Assembly (NCBI RefSeq): GCF_024639605.1
Contig: NZ_JAHEHZ010000010.1
Span: forward strand, 1 to 42,496
From: Roseobacter sp.
GTDB taxonomy: Bacteria > Pseudomonadota > Alphaproteobacteria > Rhodobacterales > Rhodobacteraceae
Length of the DNA: 42,496 nt
Direction of reading: 5' to 3'
The notes under the pieces were generated by a model that saw only the letters and a list, made by a program, of their open reading frames with translations, made no database searches and was not told the origin of the DNA. Made by a program: the position numbers and the translations under genes. Shown in pieces: positions 1 to 16,931 of this stretch (its first letter is position 1; each line of letters starts with the position of its first letter).

Positions 1-2
1 TG

Positions 3-56
3 GCTGACGCTTATGCGCGGATTGCTGAAGGGCTGATCCGCGGGGGGATGGCCTGA
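3..56 (+). CDS. C-terminal end of an unidentified protein (partial)
   Basis: One frame is open from the window edge and ends with TGA at 54-56, giving a 17-residue tail ending IRGGMA. The piece is too short to identify. A second frame is also open but stops earlier, so even the reading frame is uncertain. It would be the gene upstream of the dcw leader. No terminator is obvious directly after it. Confidence 0.3.
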   Translation, partial: ADAYARIAEGLIRGGMA

Positions 57-189
57 GCAGAACGGGCCTGATCTTTCTCGGAACGCTGCAAACAGCGACA
101 TAGTATATAGTGAAACTGCTCCTTTTCGCGCGGGGTATCGCGCCTTGCGGCCTGTTCGGACGAGGTCAGTGCGATTTCCTGTGGCCTGA

Positions 190-204
190 TGGGAAATCAT
201 GGTC
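190..204 (+). promoter_or_regulatory. MraZ box array A
   Basis: TGGGA, five bases, then TGGTC matches the 10-nt-spaced TGGGN repeats bound by MraZ. The 12-mer GGGAAATCATGG differs by one base from the core shared by arrays B and C. It lies about 600 nt upstream of mraZ, so it may serve a distal promoter or assist the proximal array. Confidence 0.5.
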
Positions 205-333
205 CGGCATCTATTTCAGCCATTGATTCGAATCAAAACCTGCAAGAACGCCTTATTCTTCGTTGATTTCGAGGCTGCGTGGCGGGAACAATATGAGAAC
301 ATTCTGCCAGATTTGTTGAAGGGCCAAAAATTT

Positions 334-348
334 CGGGAAATCGTGGGA
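334..348 (+). promoter_or_regulatory. MraZ box array B
   Basis: CGGGA, five bases, then TGGGA, with the 12-mer core GGGAAATCGTGG. The same 12-mer occurs on the opposite strand in array C. An AT-rich stretch with TATATAAG follows, but I could not assign a well-spaced promoter to it. Confidence 0.55.
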
Positions 349-492
349 AATTTTTGCCCTGACCGATGATATCTATATCTGGTATATAAGTGTGAGATTT
401 CATCAATTTGTAGAAAAAATTCGTGGATTGAGCCTCTATATCTTGATTTAACTAACACTGAAGCCTGGATTTAGGGATTTGTTAGCTAAAAA

Positions 493-517
493 TCCCTTGC
501 TGTACCACGATTTCCCA
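493..517 (-). promoter_or_regulatory. MraZ box array C overlapping the dcw promoter
   Basis: Read on the minus strand this is TGGGA, five bases, TGGTA, five bases, AGGGA: three repeats at exact 10-nt spacing. It covers the end of the proposed -35 element and nearly all of the -35/-10 spacer of the mraZ promoter. That is where a repressor would sit. MraZ is known in E. coli to repress its own operon through such repeats; autoregulation here is inferred. Confidence 0.65.
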
Positions 518-526
518 CGCTATACC
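497..526 (+). promoter_or_regulatory. Probable sigma-70-type promoter of the dcw cluster
   Basis: TTGCTG (497-502) and TATACC (521-526) are separated by 18 nt. Transcription would start near 533. The start is about 270 nt upstream of mraZ, leaving a long 5' leader. MraZ box array C overlaps the element. Confidence 0.5.
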
Positions 527-532
527 TTTTAC

Positions 533-749
533 ATCAGATGAGAGCGGGACCGGGGCACCAAACGACCCCATGCAATAAAAACTCTAGCAGGTTTCATACA
601 GGCACCTCGATTTCATCAGACCAAGAGATCCGGCGCGCGAGCGAGCAGACATCCCCCCAGGTGGCGCGCGCAGTCGGACTTCCCCGCAGACGCGGGACGA
701 GGGCGGCGGGTTGATCAGTGGCAGCAGATCAACCCGCCGTTTCCATTTT
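533..749 (+). ncRNA. upsM: UpsM-like leader sRNA of the dcw cluster (predicted)
   Basis: The interval runs from the predicted start downstream of TATACC to the U-rich end after a perfect 13-bp hairpin, about 215 nt. In Rhodobacter sphaeroides the sRNA UpsM, of similar size, comes from the 5' leader of mraZ by partial termination. Position, length and terminator match here. I did not compare the sequences, so homology is inferred from synteny. A second hairpin with five paired bases (CCCGC/GCGGG) lies at 683-696. No RNase P RNA signature was found. Confidence 0.5.
704..749 (+). terminator. Hairpin terminator or attenuator before mraZ
   Basis: Arms CGGCGGGTTGATC (704-716) and GATCAACCCGCCG (727-739) are perfectly complementary around a 10-nt loop. 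An imperfect T-rich tract (TTTCCATTTT) follows. The weak tract suggests partial read-through into mraZ, so it may act as an attenuator. Confidence 0.65.
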
Positions 750-804
750 AAATCAGGGGGAAGCGCGCGAAACTTGAGGCAGCGCATGAAGTTGGGATAA
801 GGCA

Positions 805-1308
805 GTGAGCCGCAGGTTCAGAGGCGAAAGCCGGCATAAGGTCGATGCAAAGGGGCGGGTCTCGATACCGGCCTCTTTCCGCCGTGTGATCGAAGCTGCT
901 GATCCGGCTTGGACGTCGGGCGATGCCCCCGAACTGGTCATTGTCTATGGCGACCACCGCCGCAACTACCTTGAGTGTTACACGATCGAAGCCATCAACG
1001 AGGTGGATGACAAGATTGATGCGCTGCCGCGCGGGTCGATGGAGCGGCGCATGCTGCAGCGGCTCTTTCATGGTCAGTCTTTCCCTACGTCCGTCGATGA
1101 AACCGGCCGCCTCGTGCTGCCGGCAAAGCTGCGCCAGAAAATCGGTCTCGACAAGGAGGCCTTCTTTATCGCCGCAGGTGACACCTTCCAGATCTGGGAG
1201 CCCGGCACCTATGAGGCCGAAGAGGCCGCCAAAACCGAAGCATGGCTTGATGAGTTGCCGCCGGATTTTGATCCGCTGGTCTTCCTGGATGCAAAGCAGG
1301 GGGAGTAG
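805..1308 (+). CDS. mraZ: Transcriptional regulator MraZ
   Basis: MraZ is a ring-forming DNA-binding protein of the AbrB-like fold that represses the dcw operon promoter through TGGGN repeats. At 167 residues it is a little longer than E. coli MraZ. The two internal repeats carry the family DxxxR motifs, DAKGRVSIP near residues 14-22 and DETGRLVLP near 98-106. The GTG start at 805 is supported by GGGATAAGG just upstream. It is the first gene of the cluster and abuts rsmH directly. Matching boxes lie in the leader. Confidence 0.95.
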   Translation: MSRRFRGESRHKVDAKGRVSIPASFRRVIEAADPAWTSGDAPELVIVYGDHRRNYLECYTIEAINEVDDKIDALPRGSMERRMLQRLFHGQSFPTSVDETGRLVLPAKLRQKIGLDKEAFFIAAGDTFQIWEPGTYEAEEAAKTEAWLDELPPDFDPLVFLDAKQGE

Positions 1309-1311
1309 GTG

Positions 1312-2304
1312 ATGGCTGCTGCGGCCACTTCTGATCAGTCTGCGCCTCATGTCCCCGTTCTGCTGCCTGCTATACTGAACGCTGTTGCTCCGGTGCAGGG
1401 GCGCTGGCTTGATGGCACATTCGGTGCCGGCGGTTACACGCGTGGTTTGCTGGAGGCCGGGGCCGCTCAGGTCATTGCGGTTGATCGCGATCCTCTGGCG
1501 TTCGAACTGGCGGAAAGCTGGGCCGGAGATTATGGCGACCGGCTGATCCTCCGGCAGGGTGTGTTCTCGAAAATGGACAGCTTTGCGTCAGATCTCGACG
1601 GCGTGGTGCTCGATCTGGGCGTCTCATCGATGCAGATCGACACACCCGAGCGCGGCTTTTCATTCATGCGCGACGGGCCGCTCGATATGCGCATGAGTCA
1701 GGACGGACTTTCTGCTGCTGATATCGTCAACGAGGCCTCCGAAGAGACGATTGCCAATGTCCTCTTTCAGTACGGGGAAGAGCGGGCGAGCCGGAGAATT
1801 GCAAAAGCCATTCTGCGCGAGCGAACGCTCGAACCCATCACCACCACTTTACGTCTGGCGGGCATTATCGAAAGCTGTCTGCCGCGGGCAAAGCCCGGCC
1901 AGTCACACCCTGCAACGCGCAGTTTTCAGGCTTTGCGAATTGCAGTGAATGATGAGTACGGGGAGTTGTTTCAGGGGCTTATGGCCGCTGAGCGGGCGCT
2001 TGGGCCGGGCGGGTGGCTTGCTGTCGTCACCTTTCACTCCGTCGAGGACCGTATGGTAAAACGCTTTCTGACAGCCCGTGCGGGTGCCGGCGGCAACGCC
2101 AACAGATTTGCGCCTGAAACTGAAAAAGAGCCGCCGCAGTTTACCCTGCCACAGCGCAAAGCAGTGTCGGCGGATGAGGCTGAGGTCGAGGCCAATCCGC
2201 GCGCCCGGTCCGCCCGGTTGCGTGTGGCGCGGCGCACGGACGCGCCGGCAGGGGACATAGATGCAAAATCCATCGGCATGCCGGTGGTCAGAGAGGTTAA
2301 GTGA
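1312..2304 (+). CDS. rsmH: 16S rRNA (cytosine1402-N4)-methyltransferase RsmH
   Basis: RsmH (MraW) transfers a methyl group from S-adenosylmethionine to N4 of C1402 in 16S rRNA. About 330 residues, the usual length. HVPVLL near the N-terminus, the SAM-binding [12 protein letters not shown] and a later [15 protein letters not shown] are family signatures. GTG at 1309 also opens this frame, but ATG at 1312 is better spaced from GGGGGAG. The stop shares one base with the ftsL ATG. Confidence 0.95.
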
Positions 2305-2669
2305 TGCGGACGGTGTTTTATATCCTCACCACGCTCAGTGTGATCGGCCTTGCGTTCTGGGCCTATCGTGAGAATTACGCGACACAGGGGGCGCTCGCAG
2401 AGACGCGAGCGCTGCGCCAGGAAATCCGCGAGGCGCATGAGCGCCTGACCGTTCTGCGCGCCGAATGGGCCTATCTCAACCGACCCGACAGGCTGCGCGA
2501 TCTTGCGGATATCAATTTCGACCGGCTGGGGCTGCTGCCTCTGCGGCCCGACCAGTTCGGGCATATCGATCAGGTTGCCTATCCGCCTGCGCCGGAACTG
2601 GAATTCACCGACGGCGTAGATGTATCGAACCTTGTGGATGGTGCCGCGCCGTCAGGGGTGACGCAATGA
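2304..2669 (+). CDS. ftsL: Cell division protein FtsL
   Basis: This is a small bitopic divisome protein of 121 residues. A single N-terminal membrane segment lies near residues 3-20, followed by a heptad-rich region at about 28-60 likely to form a coiled coil with an FtsB-type partner. FtsL joins the FtsQ-B-L complex that activates FtsW and FtsI. The sequence is poorly conserved, so the call rests on topology, size and position between rsmH and ftsI. ATG at 2304 overlaps the rsmH stop (TGATG) and follows GAGAGG. The 3' end overlaps ftsI as ATGA. Confidence 0.88.
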   Translation: MRTVFYILTTLSVIGLAFWAYRENYATQGALAETRALRQEIREAHERLTVLRAEWAYLNRPDRLRDLADINFDRLGLLPLRPDQFGHIDQVAYPPAPELEFTDGVDVSNLVDGAAPSGVTQ

Positions 2670-4441
2670 TCCGCACCCCCCTTCGTCCGCTCGCACGGAT
2701 CCTTGACGCGCGCCAGAAGGGCGAAAGTCCCGAAGCTATTGAACGTGAAAACATACGTATCCGTCACGAACAGATGCGCGACCAGGCACGGCAGCGCGCT
2801 GAGGGCCGGTTGCTCGTGCTGGGGGTGTTTTTCCTCATGGCCTTTATGGTGGTGGGCGCTCGTATGGGCATGATGGCCACCTCTGAGCCGCGCGAGCCCA
2901 GAGCGGAGGCGCCCGGCTCGGTGATTCATGCCGCGCGTGCAGATATCGTGGACCGCAACGGCGCGTTGCTGGCGACGAATTTTGAAACGCATGCACTGTA
3001 TGCGCAGCCACCCCAGATGGTTGACCCGGCCCATGCAGCCCGCGAGCTTGCTAAGGTCTTCCCGGATCTGAAAGAACAGGATTTGCTGGAGGATTTTACA
3101 GGCAAGCGTAAGTTCCTGTGGATCAAAAAGAAAATCAGCCCTGAGCAGATGCAGGCGGTACATGAGATCGGCGATCCCGGTCTGATGTTCGGCGTGCGGG
3201 ACATGCGGCTTTACCCCAACGGACAGCTGGCAGCGCATGTACTGGGCGGGGCGGGGTTTGGCAAAGAGGGCGTCTCGGCGGCTGAAGTGATCGGTGTTGC
3301 AGGGGTCGAGAAATACTTCGATGATTATCTGCGGGACCCGGCCAATTCGCAGTTGCAGCTGTCGCTTGATCTGACCGTTCAGGCGGCGGCGGAGCGGGTA
3401 CTTTACGGCGGCATGAAGCTGATGAATGCCAAAGGCGCCACGTCGATCCTGATGGATGTGCACACCGGAGAGGTGATCAGCGTCGTGTCTCTGCCAACGT
3501 TCGACCCCAATGCGCGTCCACGCCCGCTGGCCTCCGGCGATGCCTCAGACACGCCGCTTTTTAACCGGTCGGTGCAGGGGGTTTACGAGCTTGGATCGAC
3601 CTTCAAAATTTTCACCGTGGCCCAGGCCATGGATCTCGGTCTGGTGAATCCCGATACTCTCATCGACACCAAAGGGCCATTGCGCTGGGGCAAATTCCGT
3701 ATCCGCGATTTCCGCAACTACGGCGACGAGATGTCGGTCACCAAAATTATTGTAAAAAGTTCCAACATCGGTACCGCGCGGCTTGCCATGGAAATCGGCG
3801 CGACGCGACAGCGTTCTTTTCTGCAAAGGCTTGGCATGCTGGACGCCACCGGCTTTGAGATCGTCGAGGCGGCTACGGGAAAACCATTGTTTCCTAAAAA
3901 CTGGTCTGAAATCAGTGCGATGACGATTTCTTATGGTCACGGGCTCTCAACCTCGCCCATGCATCTCGCGGCGGGCTATGCGGCGATTGCAAACGGCGGG
4001 CTCAAAGTGCAGCCGACGATCCTGAAACAGGACGGGCCACGCAAAGGCGAGCGGGTTTTCTCGGAACACTCGTCGGCAGCCGCACGTAAGATGCTGCGCA
4101 AAGTGGTGACCGAGGGCACGGCAAGTTTTGGCGAGGTTGCGGGCTATGCGGTGGGCGGCAAGACGGGTACAGCCGACAAACCAAGACCGCAGGGCGGATA
4201 TTACGATGATAAAGTCATTGCGACATTTGCCTCGATCTTTCCGGCCCATGACCCCAGATATGTACTGATCGTCACGCTCGATGAGCCGGTCGATACCACC
4301 TCGGACGAGCCGCGACGCACAGCGGGCTGGACAGCGGTGCCGGTTGCAGCCGAGATGATCCGGCGGATCGCCCCGCTGCTGGGGCTCAGACCAACCGTTG
4401 AACCTGCTGAACTGATGGATATAACGCTTACTCAGAACTAA
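2666..4441 (+). CDS. ftsI: Peptidoglycan D,D-transpeptidase FtsI (PBP3)
   Basis: FtsI is the septal class B penicillin-binding protein; it crosslinks peptidoglycan made by FtsW. 591 residues. One membrane anchor lies near 48-66, then the pedestal domain and the transpeptidase domain. Catalytic motifs are STFK at 311-314, SSN at 365-367 and KTG at 499-501. The ORF track extends further upstream to 2465, but that part overlaps ftsL. ATG at 2666 overlaps the ftsL stop by four bases and matches family length. Confidence 0.96.
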   Translation: MIRTPLRPLARILDARQKGESPEAIERENIRIRHEQMRDQARQRAEGRLLVLGVFFLMAFMVVGARMGMMATSEPREPRAEAPGSVIHAARADIVDRNGALLATNFETHALYAQPPQMVDPAHAARELAKVFPDLKEQDLLEDFTGKRKFLWIKKKISPEQMQAVHEIGDPGLMFGVRDMRLYPNGQLAAHVLGGAGFGKEGVSAAEVIGVAGVEKYFDDYLRDPANSQLQLSLDLTVQAAAERVLYGGMKLMNAKGATSILMDVHTGEVISVVSLPTFDPNARPRPLASGDASDTPLFNRSVQGVYELGSTFKIFTVAQAMDLGLVNPDTLIDTKGPLRWGKFRIRDFRNYGDEMSVTKIIVKSSNIGTARLAMEIGATRQRSFLQRLGMLDATGFEIVEAATGKPLFPKNWSEISAMTISYGHGLSTSPMHLAAGYAAIANGGLKVQPTILKQDGPRKGERVFSEHSSAAARKMLRKVVTEGTASFGEVAGYAVGGKTGTADKPRPQGGYYDDKVIATFASIFPAHDPRYVLIVTLDEPVDTTSDEPRRTAGWTAVPVAAEMIRRIAPLLGLRPTVEPAELMDITLTQN

Positions 4442-10253: not shown

Positions 10254-11423
10254 TTAAATCGCGCGGGCTGCGGCCATGGCCGATGCCCAGGCCCATTGGA
10301 AATTGTACCCGCCAAGCCAGCCTGTGACATCCACCGCCTCACCGATAAAGTACAGCCCGGGGATATCTTTGGCTGCCATGGTCTGTGAGGACAGGTCATC
10401 AGTGCTGACCCCGCCAAGGGTGACTTCGGCCTTGCGATAGCCTTCGGTGCCCGAGGGGAGCATTTCCCAGTTTCCAAGGCGGCCTGCAAGGTCCTGTAAC
10501 TGCGCGTCTGACTGGTCCGCAAGATTTCCTGTGAGCCCGAACTCACTGGCGATATGGTCTGCGAGACGTGCCGGATAATGTTGTGCGAGTTCTGTGACGA
10601 ATTTTCGTTTGCCCGCCTTCTGACGCTGCGCCCGCAGGGCCCCGGACAGGGTATTCTCCGGATCCAGACTGACCGTCACCGTGTCGCCTTCGCGCCAGTA
10701 GCTTGACGCCTGCAGAACGGCCGGCCCGGAAAGCCCCCGATGCGTAAAGAGCAAAGCCTCATCAAAGGCGGTTCCGCCCGCTGTGATCCGCGCGGGGGCC
10801 GCGACCCCTGCGAGATGCGCAAAGCGTCCTTCGGGAAACGTGAAGGGAACCAGCGCGGGCCGGGTATCGGTAACCCTCAGGCCGAACCGCCGGGCGATAT
10901 CATAGGCAAGACCGGTAGCGCCCATTTTCGGAATGGATTTGCCCCCGGTGGCTATGACGAGGTTTTTTGCTGTCACCTGCGTCGTCCTGCCCTCGCGGGT
11001 CATGGCAAAAGTGAACCCCTCCGGCCCCTTTGCAAAGTCGTGGGCTGTCGTTTGCAAATTCAGTGTCGCGCCGTTTTTCTGCATCAGATCGAGCAGCATG
11101 GCTATGATTTCTTTTGCAGAGCCGTCGCAGAAAAGCTGGCCCAGCGTCTTTTCGTGCCAGGCGATGCCGTACTGATCCACAAGACTGATGAAATCCCACT
11201 GGGTATAGCGCGCCAGTGCGGATTTGGCGAAATGCGGGTTCCCGGACAGAAATGACTGCGCATCGCAGTGCATATTCGTGAAATTGCACCGACCGCCGCC
11301 GGAGATCCGGATCTTTTCGCCCGGCGCCCGCGCGTGGTCAATCACCAGCACACGTCCCGGGGTGTGGGCCGCGCACATCATACCGGCCGCGCCGGCACCG
11401 ATGATAGCTGTATCTGTCTGCAT
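10254..11423 (-). CDS. HI0933/BaiN-family FAD-dependent oxidoreductase
   Basis: The 389-residue flavoprotein has the N-terminal dinucleotide fold GAGAAG at 9-14, the family signature SGGGRCNFTN at 41-50, and near the C-terminus the second FAD region GLYFIGEAVDVTGWLGGYN. These are typical of the HI0933/YhiN/BaiN group, whose substrates are mostly undefined. It lies antisense between murD and ftsW and so splits the dcw cluster. No metabolic partner is seen nearby. Confidence 0.85.
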   Translation of the reverse strand: MQTDTAIIGAGAAGMMCAAHTPGRVLVIDHARAPGEKIRISGGGRCNFTNMHCDAQSFLSGNPHFAKSALARYTQWDFISLVDQYGIAWHEKTLGQLFCDGSAKEIIAMLLDLMQKNGATLNLQTTAHDFAKGPEGFTFAMTREGRTTQVTAKNLVIATGGKSIPKMGATGLAYDIARRFGLRVTDTRPALVPFTFPEGRFAHLAGVAAPARITAGGTAFDEALLFTHRGLSGPAVLQASSYWREGDTVTVSLDPENTLSGALRAQRQKAGKRKFVTELAQHYPARLADHIASEFGLTGNLADQSDAQLQDLAGRLGNWEMLPSGTEGYRKAEVTLGGVSTDDLSSQTMAAKDIPGLYFIGEAVDVTGWLGGYNFQWAWASAMAAARAI

Positions 11424-12728: not shown

Positions 12729-13828
12729 GTTCCGCGCCGCTTCTCGTGATTGCGGCCGGCGGAACCGGCGGGCATATGTTCCCCGCTCAGGCACTGGCCG
12801 AGGCGATGCTGGACCGTGGCTGGCGGGTAAAGCTCTCCACCGATGCCCGCGGCGCGCGCTATACCGGCGCCTTTCCGGACGGTGCCGAGATCGAAGAGAT
12901 CAGCAGTGCCACCTTTTCGCGCGGTGGACTTGCAGCTAAAGCTGCGGCGCCTTTCCGGATCGGTGCGGGTGTTCTGGGTGCGCTCATGGCCTTCAGCAGG
13001 GACCGGCCGGCAGTTGTGGTGGGCTTTGGCGGTTATCCCGCGATCCCGGCGATGGCTGCGGCCTTTGTGATGAAGCTGCCGCGCATGATCCACGAGCAGA
13101 ACGGTATTCTGGGGCGGGTCAACACGGTTTTTGCCACGCGGGTGAATGCGATTGCCTGCGGAACCTGGCCCACTGATCTGCCGGAAGGTGTGGTGGGCGA
13201 GCATACCGGCAACCCGGTGCGGCGCGCGGTGCTCGACCGGTCCGAGGCGGGTTATATCTCGCCCGGGGATTACCCGATGGAATTGCTGGTCATCGGCGGC
13301 AGCCAGGGCGCGCGCATTCTCAGCGATGTGGTGCCGCCTGCTGTGGCCGGGCTGCCGATGCGCATCCTCGACAACATCCGCGTGAGCCACCAGGCCCGCG
13401 AGGAAGACCAGGAGCGGGTGGCGAAATATTATGCTGACAACGGCATCAAAGCCGATGTTCAACCCTTTTTCAAAGATGTCCCGCGCCGGATGTCAGAAGC
13501 GCAACTGGTGATCAGTCGGGCGGGGGCGTCCTCTGTTGCCGATATCTCTGTCATCGGGCGGCCGTCGATCCTGATCCCGTTTGCCGCGGCGACCGGTGAC
13601 CACCAGACGGCAAATGCGCGCGGTCTCGTCGAGGCCGGCGCCGCGATCATGGTGCCGGAATCCAAGGCAGACGTGGCGGCACTTACGGAAATGATCGCCT
13701 CTGTGCTGGACAATCCAGAGGGGGCGATGCAAATGGCCCGCTCGGCGGCAAAATTCGGAAAACCCGAGGCGACCGAACTGCTGGCAGGGATGGTCGAGCG
13801 GCTTGCCGGAAAGGAACATGAGACATGA
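12725..13828 (+). CDS. murG: UDP-GlcNAc:lipid I GlcNAc transferase MurG
   Basis: MurG is a peripheral GT28 glycosyltransferase on the inner face of the membrane; it converts lipid I to lipid II. 367 residues. The glycine-rich loop GGTGGH is at 12-17. VVGFGGYP and the C-terminal-domain region [10 protein letters not shown], with [11 protein letters not shown], are family signatures. Overlaps of four bases link it to ftsW before and murC after. Confidence 0.96.
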
Positions 13829-15231
13829 GTGCTGCAACAAAACTGCCAGGGGACGTGGGTCCTATTCATTTCGTCGGCATCGGTGGGATCGGCATGTCGG
13901 GCATCGCAGAGGTTTTGCTGAACCATGGCTACCGGGTACAGGGATCGGATCTGAAATCCTCTCCGATTACCGAGCGGCTTGCGGGTCTCGGGGCGCATAT
14001 CTTTGAGAGCCAGAAGGCGGACAATGTCGAAAACGCCGGGGTCGTCGTGATCTCAAGCGCCATCAAAACGGGCAACCCGGAGCTGGATGCCGCCCGCGCG
14101 AAGGGCCTGCCGGTGGTGCGCCGCGCAGAGATGCTGGCCGAACTGATGCGGCTGAAATCCAATGTCGCTGTGGCGGGCACACACGGCAAAACGACGACCA
14201 CCACTATGGTTGCCACGCTGCTCGATGCCGGTGATTTCGACCCCACGGTGATCAACGGTGGGATCATTCACGCTTACGGCTCAAACGCGCGGGCCGGCGA
14301 GGGCGAGTGGATGGTTGTGGAGGCTGATGAAAGCGACGGCACGTTCAACCGTCTGCCTGCCACCATCGCGATCATCACCAATATCGATCCCGAGCACATG
14401 GAGCACTGGGGCACCGAAGCAGCCCTGCATCAGGGGTTCTACGATTTCGTCTCGAATATTCCGTTTTATGGCATCGCCGTCTGCTGCACCGATGACCCGG
14501 ATGTGCAGGCGCTGGTGGGGCGGATCACCGACCGTCGCGTTGTCACCTACGGGTTCAATGCGCAGGCGGATGTGCGGGCAATCAATCTTATCTACAAATC
14601 GGGGGTCGCGCATTTCGATGTGGCCCTGCAGGCCGAAGGCATCGTCATCGAAGGCTGCAGCCTGCCCATGCCCGGAGATCACAATGTCTCCAACGCGCTC
14701 TCTGCTATCGCTGTCGCCCGCCATCTTGGTATGAAGGCCGGGCAGATTAAGACCGCGTTAGCCGCGTTCGGCGGCGTTAACAGGCGCTTTACCCGGGTGG
14801 GCGAAATTGACGGCGTGACAATCATTGATGACTACGGACACCATCCCGTCGAGATTACGGCGGTGCTGAAAGCGGCCCGTCATGCGACGGAGGGCCGGGT
14901 GATAGCCGTGCACCAGCCGCACCGCTATTCGAGGCTCTCCAGTTTGTTTGATGACTTCTGCGCCTGTTTCAACGATGCGGATGTGGTGGGGATCGCCGAG
15001 GTTTTCGCCGCCGGCGAGGACCCGGTTGAAGGATACGGGCGCGACGATCTGGTGGCCGGGCTTATCCGTCACGGACACCGGCATGCGCGCGCCGTCGTTG
15101 ATGAAGATGATCTGGAGCGCCTTGTGCGTGAACAGGCGCGGCCCGGTGATATGGTCGTCTGTCTTGGTGCCGGTACGATCAGCGCCTGGGCCAACGCTCT
15201 GCCGGACCGGCTGAAGAAAAAGGTGGCATAG
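13825..15231 (+). CDS. murC: UDP-N-acetylmuramate:L-alanine ligase MurC
   Basis: MurC starts the peptide stem by adding L-alanine to UDP-MurNAc. 468 residues. The N-terminal [11 protein letters not shown] is near 16-26, the ATP loop GTHGKTT is at 118-124, and [11 protein letters not shown] follows. The start overlaps murG as ATGA. Three short membrane-protein genes follow before murB. Confidence 0.96.
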
Positions 15232-15238
15232 CGCGGGT

Positions 15239-15499
15239 ATGAAACTGATTGCCATTACGGCCGGGATATCTGTCGCCAGTGGGGTGAGGGGTCTGTTGAC
15301 GGAAAAGCGAATGCGTGGATACGCCCTGGCCGGAACGGCGTTCGCAGTGGCCGCGGCGAGCATCGGTGCCGCGATGTTTTTCGCGCGCGCGGGTGGGAAT
15401 GACAACATTGTCGGCGCCTTCGTCCTCTGCGGATACCTTGTGCCCGCAGTCGCGGGGTTTGCAATCGGTGGCGGCGTGTCAAAAATCAGATATTACTAG
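15239..15499 (+). CDS. Small membrane protein between murC and murB
   Basis: This 86-residue protein has two clear hydrophobic segments near residues 28-49 and 57-80 and a weaker one at the N-terminus. It is not recognised as a named family. It begins 7 nt after murC. The upstream ribosome site is weak, so it may depend on coupling to murC. The next gene has its own strong GGGGGAAGG directly after its stop. Confidence 0.6.
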   Translation: MKLIAITAGISVASGVRGLLTEKRMRGYALAGTAFAVAAASIGAAMFFARAGGNDNIVGAFVLCGYLVPAVAGFAIGGGVSKIRYY

Positions 15500-15509
15500 G
15501 GGGAAGGCT

Positions 15510-15758
15510 ATGTTGCTCTGGATCTGTATTGCATGGGTTCTCGCCTCGGCGGCGGTCGCGATGCTGCCGATGCGGCTGCAATATGTGCCTGGCATCGCCC
15601 TGCTCCTGATGGCGCCGGTGCTGATCGTGCTGGCCGGGCTTGCCTGGAACTGGTGGGTGGCGGGCTTTGCGCTCTTTGCCTTCGTGTCGATGTTCCGCAA
15701 TCCGCTGCGTTATTTTCTTGCCCGGGCACGGGGCGAACGACCGGAGATACCCCGATGA
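15510..15758 (+). CDS. DUF2484-family membrane protein (copy 1)
   Basis: 82 residues with two or three hydrophobic segments and a basic C-terminus. The pattern LPMR near 19-22 and FRNPLRY near the C-terminus resemble DUF2484, a family I recall from Rhodobacterales cell-wall clusters. ATG at 15510 follows GGGGGAAGG; the ORF track starts at 15315, which would overlap the previous gene. The stop overlaps the next ATG (ATGA). Function unknown. Confidence 0.7.
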   Translation: MLLWICIAWVLASAAVAMLPMRLQYVPGIALLLMAPVLIVLAGLAWNWWVAGFALFAFVSMFRNPLRYFLARARGERPEIPR

Positions 15759-16003
15759 GCACGCCCCTGATCCTCGCCGCCGTCTGGGCGCTTATTGCCA
15801 ATATCCTCGCTATGACGCCGAGCAGGGACCACCACTGGCGCAATGCTTATATTCTGATCGCCGTGGGCATCCCTATTGTCGGTCTGGTGACCTGGGCGCA
15901 TGGTCCCTGGATCGGAATGCTGGTAATGGTCGCCGGCATGTCGGTGCTGCGCTGGCCGGTGATTTATCTTGGCCGCTGGATCAGACGCATCACGCTGCGC
16001 TGA
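15755..16003 (+). CDS. DUF2484-family membrane protein (copy 2)
   Basis: 82 residues, the same length as its neighbour. It shares the layout: an N-terminal L...W.L segment, P.R near residue 22, a second hydrophobic segment and R.P..Y near the C-terminus. The two look like an old tandem duplication. ATG at 15755 overlaps the previous stop by four bases; the ORF-track start at 15533 is too early. Function unknown; the position between murC and murB suggests an envelope role. Confidence 0.7.
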
Positions 16004-16013
16004 GAGGGCCCTG

Positions 16014-16931
16014 ATGACGGACATGCCACAGGTGCGCGGGCGGCTGACGCCGGACCGGACGCTGAATGATCTGACATGGCTGCGTGTGGGCGGTCCTGCC
16101 GACTGGCTCTTCCAACCGGCGGACGAAGAAGATCTCTGTGCATTTCTCGCAGCCCTGCCGCCGGAGGTTCCGGTTTTCCCGATGGGTGTCGGCTCCAACC
16201 TGATCGTGCGCGATGGCGGTCTGCGTGCCGTGGTGATCCGCCTTGGCCGCGGGTTTAACGCAATTGACTGCACGGGAACGCAGGTGACGGCGGGGGCGGC
16301 AGCCCTTGATGCGCATGTCGCGCGCCGTGCGGCGGATGCCGGGCTCGATCTGACATTTCTGCGTACCATTCCCGGCAGTATCGGCGGGGCCGTGCGCATG
16401 AATGCCGGCTGTTACGGAAGCTATACGGCGGATGTCCTTTCGGAGGTACGGGCAGTCACGCGTTCCGGCGAAGTGATCACCATACCCGCATCAGATCTGC
16501 AGCTTGCCTACCGCCAGAGCGTGCTGCCGGACGGGGCTGTGCTCACGGCTGCGGTCTTTAACGCACCCCGGGAGGATCCCGCCAGGCTGCATGCACGCAT
16601 GGAAGATCAGCTGGCAAAGCGCAACGCGTCCCAGCCGGTGAAAGACCGCAGTGCAGGATCGACATTTCGCAATCCGGCAGGGTTTTCATCGACCGGGCAG
16701 TCGGATGACGTGCATGATCTCAAGGCCTGGAAGGTGATTGACGACGCCGGTATGCGCGGCGCACGGCGTGGCGGTGCGCAGATGAGCGAAAAGCATTCTA
16801 ATTTCCTGATCAATACCGGGGATGCCACTGCGGCGGATCTTGAGGGATTGGGCGAGGACGTGCGAAAAAAGGTTTACGCCCAAAGCGGTATCACGCTAGA
16901 ATGGGAAATCATGCGGGTCGGCGAGAATTAA
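16014..16931 (+). CDS. murB: UDP-N-acetylenolpyruvoylglucosamine reductase MurB
   Basis: MurB is a cytoplasmic flavoenzyme that reduces enolpyruvyl-UDP-GlcNAc to UDP-MurNAc with NADPH. 305 residues, as for type I/II short forms. FAD-binding motifs are [12 protein letters not shown] at 58-69 and [16 protein letters not shown] at 117-132; AGSTFRNP carries the likely catalytic serine. ATG at 16014 follows GAGAGG and fits better than the ORF-track start at 15969. The stop codon lies inside a CtrA box. Confidence 0.94.

Follow-up and report, generated by a model that had tools for sequence, protein, structure and literature searches.

DUF2484 paralogs and other small membrane-protein genes at the murC-murB junction of Rhodobacteraceae

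The murC-murB interval of Roseobacter sp.

The window, by which we mean the whole stretch of 42,496 nucleotides analysed here, carries a dcw cluster of the ordinary alphaproteobacterial type, with ftsW, murG, murC, murB, ddl, ftsQ and ftsA, and also murD, ftsZ and lpxC. Three small genes fill the interval between murC (13825..15231, Pfam Mur_ligase domains) and murB (16014..16931, Pfam MurB_C and FAD_binding_4), with the positions and lengths that an earlier note on this DNA had given them. ORF A (15239..15499) encodes a small membrane protein of 86 aa, and ORF B (15510..15758) and ORF C (15755..16003) encode two DUF2484 paralogs of 82 aa each. All five genes lie on the forward strand, with successive gaps of 7, 10, -4 and 10 bp, the negative value being an ATGA at 15755-15758 in which the ORF B stop overlaps the ORF C start, as had been noticed before. 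Predicted internal promoter and terminator sites in the block are no more numerous than in shuffled sequences. The nearest relatives of ORF C come from Roseobacter species. Further upstream, an HI0933-like (BaiN-type) flavoprotein gene lies between murD and ftsW on the opposite strand (10254-11423, reverse) and breaks the otherwise co-directional cluster.

ORF C is an unambiguous member of DUF2484 (PF10658), scoring 104.5 bits over profile positions 1-76 of 76 where the curated Pfam cut-off is 25 bits. ORF B narrowly misses this cut-off with 24 bits (E 4.6e-5, positions 8-76), while B copies from other genomes score 27-50 bits, and we count ORF B in the family because of its profile comparison with C-type proteins. 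The earlier note had proposed such a comparison of the two copies, and it reveals full-length paralogs: hhalign aligns the B clade with the C clade over 76 columns at a probability of 99.5%. Iterative profile HMMs seeded with B or C alone converge, recovering 286 and 285 locus sequences, respectively. A midpoint split of a tree of 259 sequences gives a B clade (n=113) and a C clade (n=146) with supports of 0.90 and 0.81, each holding the expected protein of the window, with an uncertain clade placement for a few divergent sequences, for example those of Jannaschia. The spacing of W, P.R and R.P..Y that had been described as common to both proteins is borne out by the residue positions, which are W9 / P20.R22 / R63.P65..Y68 in ORF B and W11 / P22.R24 / R66.P68..Y71 in ORF C. 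The motifs LPMRxQYxPG and SMFRNPLRY are found in ORF B, and PSxDxHW..AY and SxLRWPxxYLxRW in ORF C. Judged from profiles and tree, B and C are true paralogs, forming two clades that arose from one old duplication.

The AF2 models have helices at residues 2-17, 21-45, 48-61 and 63-73 in ORF B (pLDDT 92.8) and at 3-20, 26-49, 51-64 and 66-81 in ORF C (pLDDT 82.6). Averaged over the clades, the net charge is about +1.3 in loop 1 and about +3 to +4 in the tail, with values of about 0 for the N-terminus and loop 2, and this positive-inside bias predicts three membrane passes with the N-terminus outside and the C-terminus inside. The C-terminal helix is basic and probably interfacial. Near-invariant residues are P20, R22, Q24, S60, M61, R63 and P65 in ORF B and P22, W28, R66, W67 and P68 in ORF C, and many of them (P, R, W and S) lie in the tail or in loop 1, which the predicted topology places in the cytosol. 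A fold search with both models against the PDB gave no match better than E 3.7, and the sequence profile found no relative there.

Selection was measured as omega (NG86) against the closest relative, whose MurC is 97% identical. The values for B (0.088) and C (0.024) are similar to those for murC (0.046), murB (0.057) and ddl (0.034), and this purifying selection marks both as maintained proteins. ORF A, with an omega of 0.40-0.41 (codon bootstrap 0.22-0.81), is coding yet loosely constrained.

Distribution, origin and loss of the DUF2484 pair

DUF2484 is found in 236 of 299 Rhodobacteraceae genomes, a sample with mostly one genome per genus, and in 271 of the 296 genomes of an order-level sample. 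In a class-wide sample, matches above the cut-off occur in five of 385 genomes and only in Rhodobacteraceae. Wherever the genomic context was inspected, the family sits at the murC-murB locus, and no spread of ORF C on plasmids was found. In the outgroups murC and murB are 5-95 bp apart in 27 of 28 genomes, which are all those where murB could be placed. This adjacency outside Rhodobacteraceae identifies the block as a lineage-specific insertion. On the murC tree the deepest Rhodobacteraceae branches lack DUF2484 and every carrier falls under one node, so the pair was apparently inserted between murC and murB once, in an ancestor of most Rhodobacteraceae. One deep lineage (L202, with an interval of 787 bp) holds a very divergent DUF2484-like pair of 84 and 103 aa, which suggests that the pair is older than much of the diversification of the family.

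The pair has also been lost many times. If a single gain is assumed and weak nodes are collapsed, the murC tree requires about 17 independent losses, a count that comes from a single-gene tree and a sample with negative genomes over-represented by design, in which very divergent copies may be missed and seven carriers were scored by whole-genome search and not by interval. Six or more of the losses are physical: in L149, L150, L156, L158, L159 and L165 the remaining intervals of -7 to 143 bp leave no room for an 82-codon gene. This number of losses argues that B and C are accessory and not indispensable. B alone has been lost in many genomes: among the completely seen intervals, in which some genomes appear under two locus ids, C is present in 106, B in 83 and both in 78. 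In one genome (L280) B and C still follow murC with no murB within about 7 kb. Loss of DUF2484 shows no correlation with loss of MreC of the MreBCD elongation system, which is present in 48 of 48 genomes with or without DUF2484.

ORF A and the turnover of the interval

The earlier note had treated all three genes as a block tightly coupled to the mur genes. This holds for B and C, whose conservation across Rhodobacteraceae extends well beyond close relatives. It does not hold for ORF A, which is fast-evolving, optional, nearly confined to close relatives and a member of another family. Within the genus ORF A is found in two of 19 genomes, plus one weak match. It has no match in Pfam, NCBIfam or PHROG, and with no PHROG match a phage origin was rejected. 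ORF A is unrelated to DUF2484, as hhalign gives just 0.2-0.7% against the B and C clades.

ORF A does resemble an unnamed family of small membrane proteins defined here, which we call k0 and which was assembled from the gaps of other genomes with ORF A left out. Its consensus is GWDxxGY ... P..G...G...G, from a loose alignment with a mean identity of 27%. The hhalign probability of ORF A against k0 is 93.8%, for a match that is weak and partly composition-biased. Searched over the genome of the window, the k0 profile finds ORF A as its sole match (E 3.4e-5, 25.8 bits). Over 61 whole genomes it gives 15 matches, 14 of them, including ORF A, at the murC-murB gap, where several were placed by matching their coordinates to the positions of the DUF2484 search; the fifteenth lies inside an unrelated frame of 872 aa. 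Two of the 14 adjoin murC in genomes without DUF2484. These profile matches give moderate support to the view that ORF A is a divergent and optional k0 member, outside the conserved block.

A second unnamed family of small membrane proteins, k1, is found downstream of the DUF2484 C gene (L082-L085, L090, L092, L101, L102 and others), with the signature GYxxRFxLF...GLxLNxLWM...GWLxGR...ESRV. It is related to k0 by profile (95.5%), and over 150 genomes its own profile gives four matches, all four of them near a DUF2484 C gene according to coordinate comparison.

Apart from B and C the content of the interval is variable, and its size ranges from about 200 to more than 3600 bp. Further small three-helix proteins and various singletons are found in it. 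An APC-superfamily amino-acid permease (PF13520) lies between murC and DUF2484 at about 20 loci of different genera (L034, L043, L059, L062, L113, L121, L285 and others), a number that includes two deep lineages without DUF2484 (L170 and L171). A large protein of about 400-570 aa with no recognised family recurs in or beside the gap (L038 at 1-1476, reverse strand; L043 at 1825-3230, forward strand; L067, L078, L114 and L133; a fragment in L007). It has an N-terminal signature like xAWLxxRP...AxRAALRVLP and sometimes long Ala/Ser repeats, and it appears to be truncated in some genomes. Long open frames of 417-710 aa around some DUF2484 matches were checked for fusions to Mur enzymes; they extend across upstream genes or GC-rich stretches, and no such fusion was seen.

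Possible roles of B and C

Few bacterial pathways are as well conserved as the synthesis of peptidoglycan precursors. To our knowledge, its cytosolic Mur enzymes lack well-established integral-membrane partners. B and C are new members of a known family that is itself uncharacterised. DUF2484 has no described function, in keeping with the suggestion of the earlier note that its role is undescribed: we found no structure, paper or annotation that gives one. A literature search for DUF2484 returned no paper, and in the passages found of a paper on the dcw cluster of R. sphaeroides the gap genes are not discussed. The literature searched describes neither the pairing of B and C nor their apparent single origin at the junction where they are locked, their repeated loss or the second gap family.

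B and C are probably an accessory part of the cell wall machinery that has seemingly gone unstudied; their location, topology and constraint may point to an envelope or precursor role. Our preferred reading, which we put forward tentatively and at less than even confidence, is that they work as a pair in the membrane, docking Mur enzymes at the inner leaflet or tuning them there. The conserved cytosolic face, the constraint and the locking to one locus would suit an adaptor or modulator in the membrane that serves those steps, cytosolic or at the inner leaflet, which the surrounding genes encode. A B-C or C-C complex would assemble in the inner membrane, where its conserved basic cytosolic face would dock or tune the late cytoplasmic and lipid-linked enzymes MurC, MurB, MurG and MraY. 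The delivery of precursors would become more efficient, with B and C not being indispensable. ORF A would be a lineage-specific extra of the second gap family and would not be needed for this function. In Caulobacter, MurG shares its location with MurB, MurC, MurE, MurF and MraY (White et al., cited in PMC6420597), which makes a membrane-bound Mur assembly a plausible client of B and C. Against this reading, no fusion of DUF2484 with a Mur enzyme was seen among the long frames checked, the roughly 17 losses and the loss of B alone in many genomes imply that such clients work without B and C, and the position in the gene cluster may reflect co-regulation only.

The proposed role is similar to that of MurG, which has been suggested as a scaffold of the cytoplasmic Mur enzymes that brings these soluble proteins to the inner leaflet (PMC6420597). 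However, MurG is a peripheral glycosyltransferase, whereas the DUF2484 proteins are predicted integral three-helix proteins and are not enzyme-like. Fusions of MurB with MurC and of other Mur enzymes also exist (cited in PMC6420597), and likewise couple neighbouring Mur steps physically. At the loci examined here no fusion is found; murC and murB are separate genes with membrane-protein genes between them.

The main rival explanation is that the murC-murB junction is a permissive insertion site, where small membrane-protein genes profit from the expression of the operon, and that B and C do a job outside the cell wall, for example as a stress or transport accessory. The gap also gathers an APC-type permease, at least two small membrane families (k0 and k1) and singletons, its size varies from about 200 to 3600 bp and losses are repeated, as would be expected of such a site. 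But a freely moving passenger should turn up elsewhere, and DUF2484 is absent from other loci in the genomes examined; the pair of L280 stays with murC although murB is not adjacent, and k0 and k1 are locked to the locus as well. The locus lock without copies elsewhere and the L280 case speak for a connection with the mur genes without proving it. We consider the permissive-site explanation only slightly less likely than the docking reading. Rather less probable is an action on lipid, in which B and C would bind, recycle or orient undecaprenyl phosphate or lipid I-II, or shape the inner-leaflet surroundings of MraY and MurG. A small three-helix protein that is encoded among mur genes and whose basic interfacial segment right after TM3 is conserved would suit this task, but there is no kinship in fold or sequence to a known lipid carrier or transporter, nor a conserved pattern of acidic or catalytic residues suggestive of chemistry. 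It is also conceivable that the small ORFs mainly tune the translation of murB through coupled overlapping frames, to which the ATGA overlap and the gaps of 7-10 bp would lend themselves, and that the proteins matter little. We regard this as highly improbable, because the low omega and the conserved amino-acid motifs require a selected protein and because C is often separated from murB by other genes.

An extension of the docking reading would take in the rest of the interval. B and C might be a dedicated, duplicated Rhodobacteraceae module that tethers cytoplasmic Mur enzymes to the inner leaflet or regulates them there, at a junction that has then repeatedly gained and lost three-helix proteins (k0, k1 and ORF A) with related roles; as a whole we think this unlikely. 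B and C are a family-wide, constrained yet dispensable pair within the mur operon of an abundant lineage of marine bacteria, and as such a testable candidate. In the gap itself, beside essential genes, small membrane-protein genes come and go unusually fast, which bears on the origins of new small proteins.
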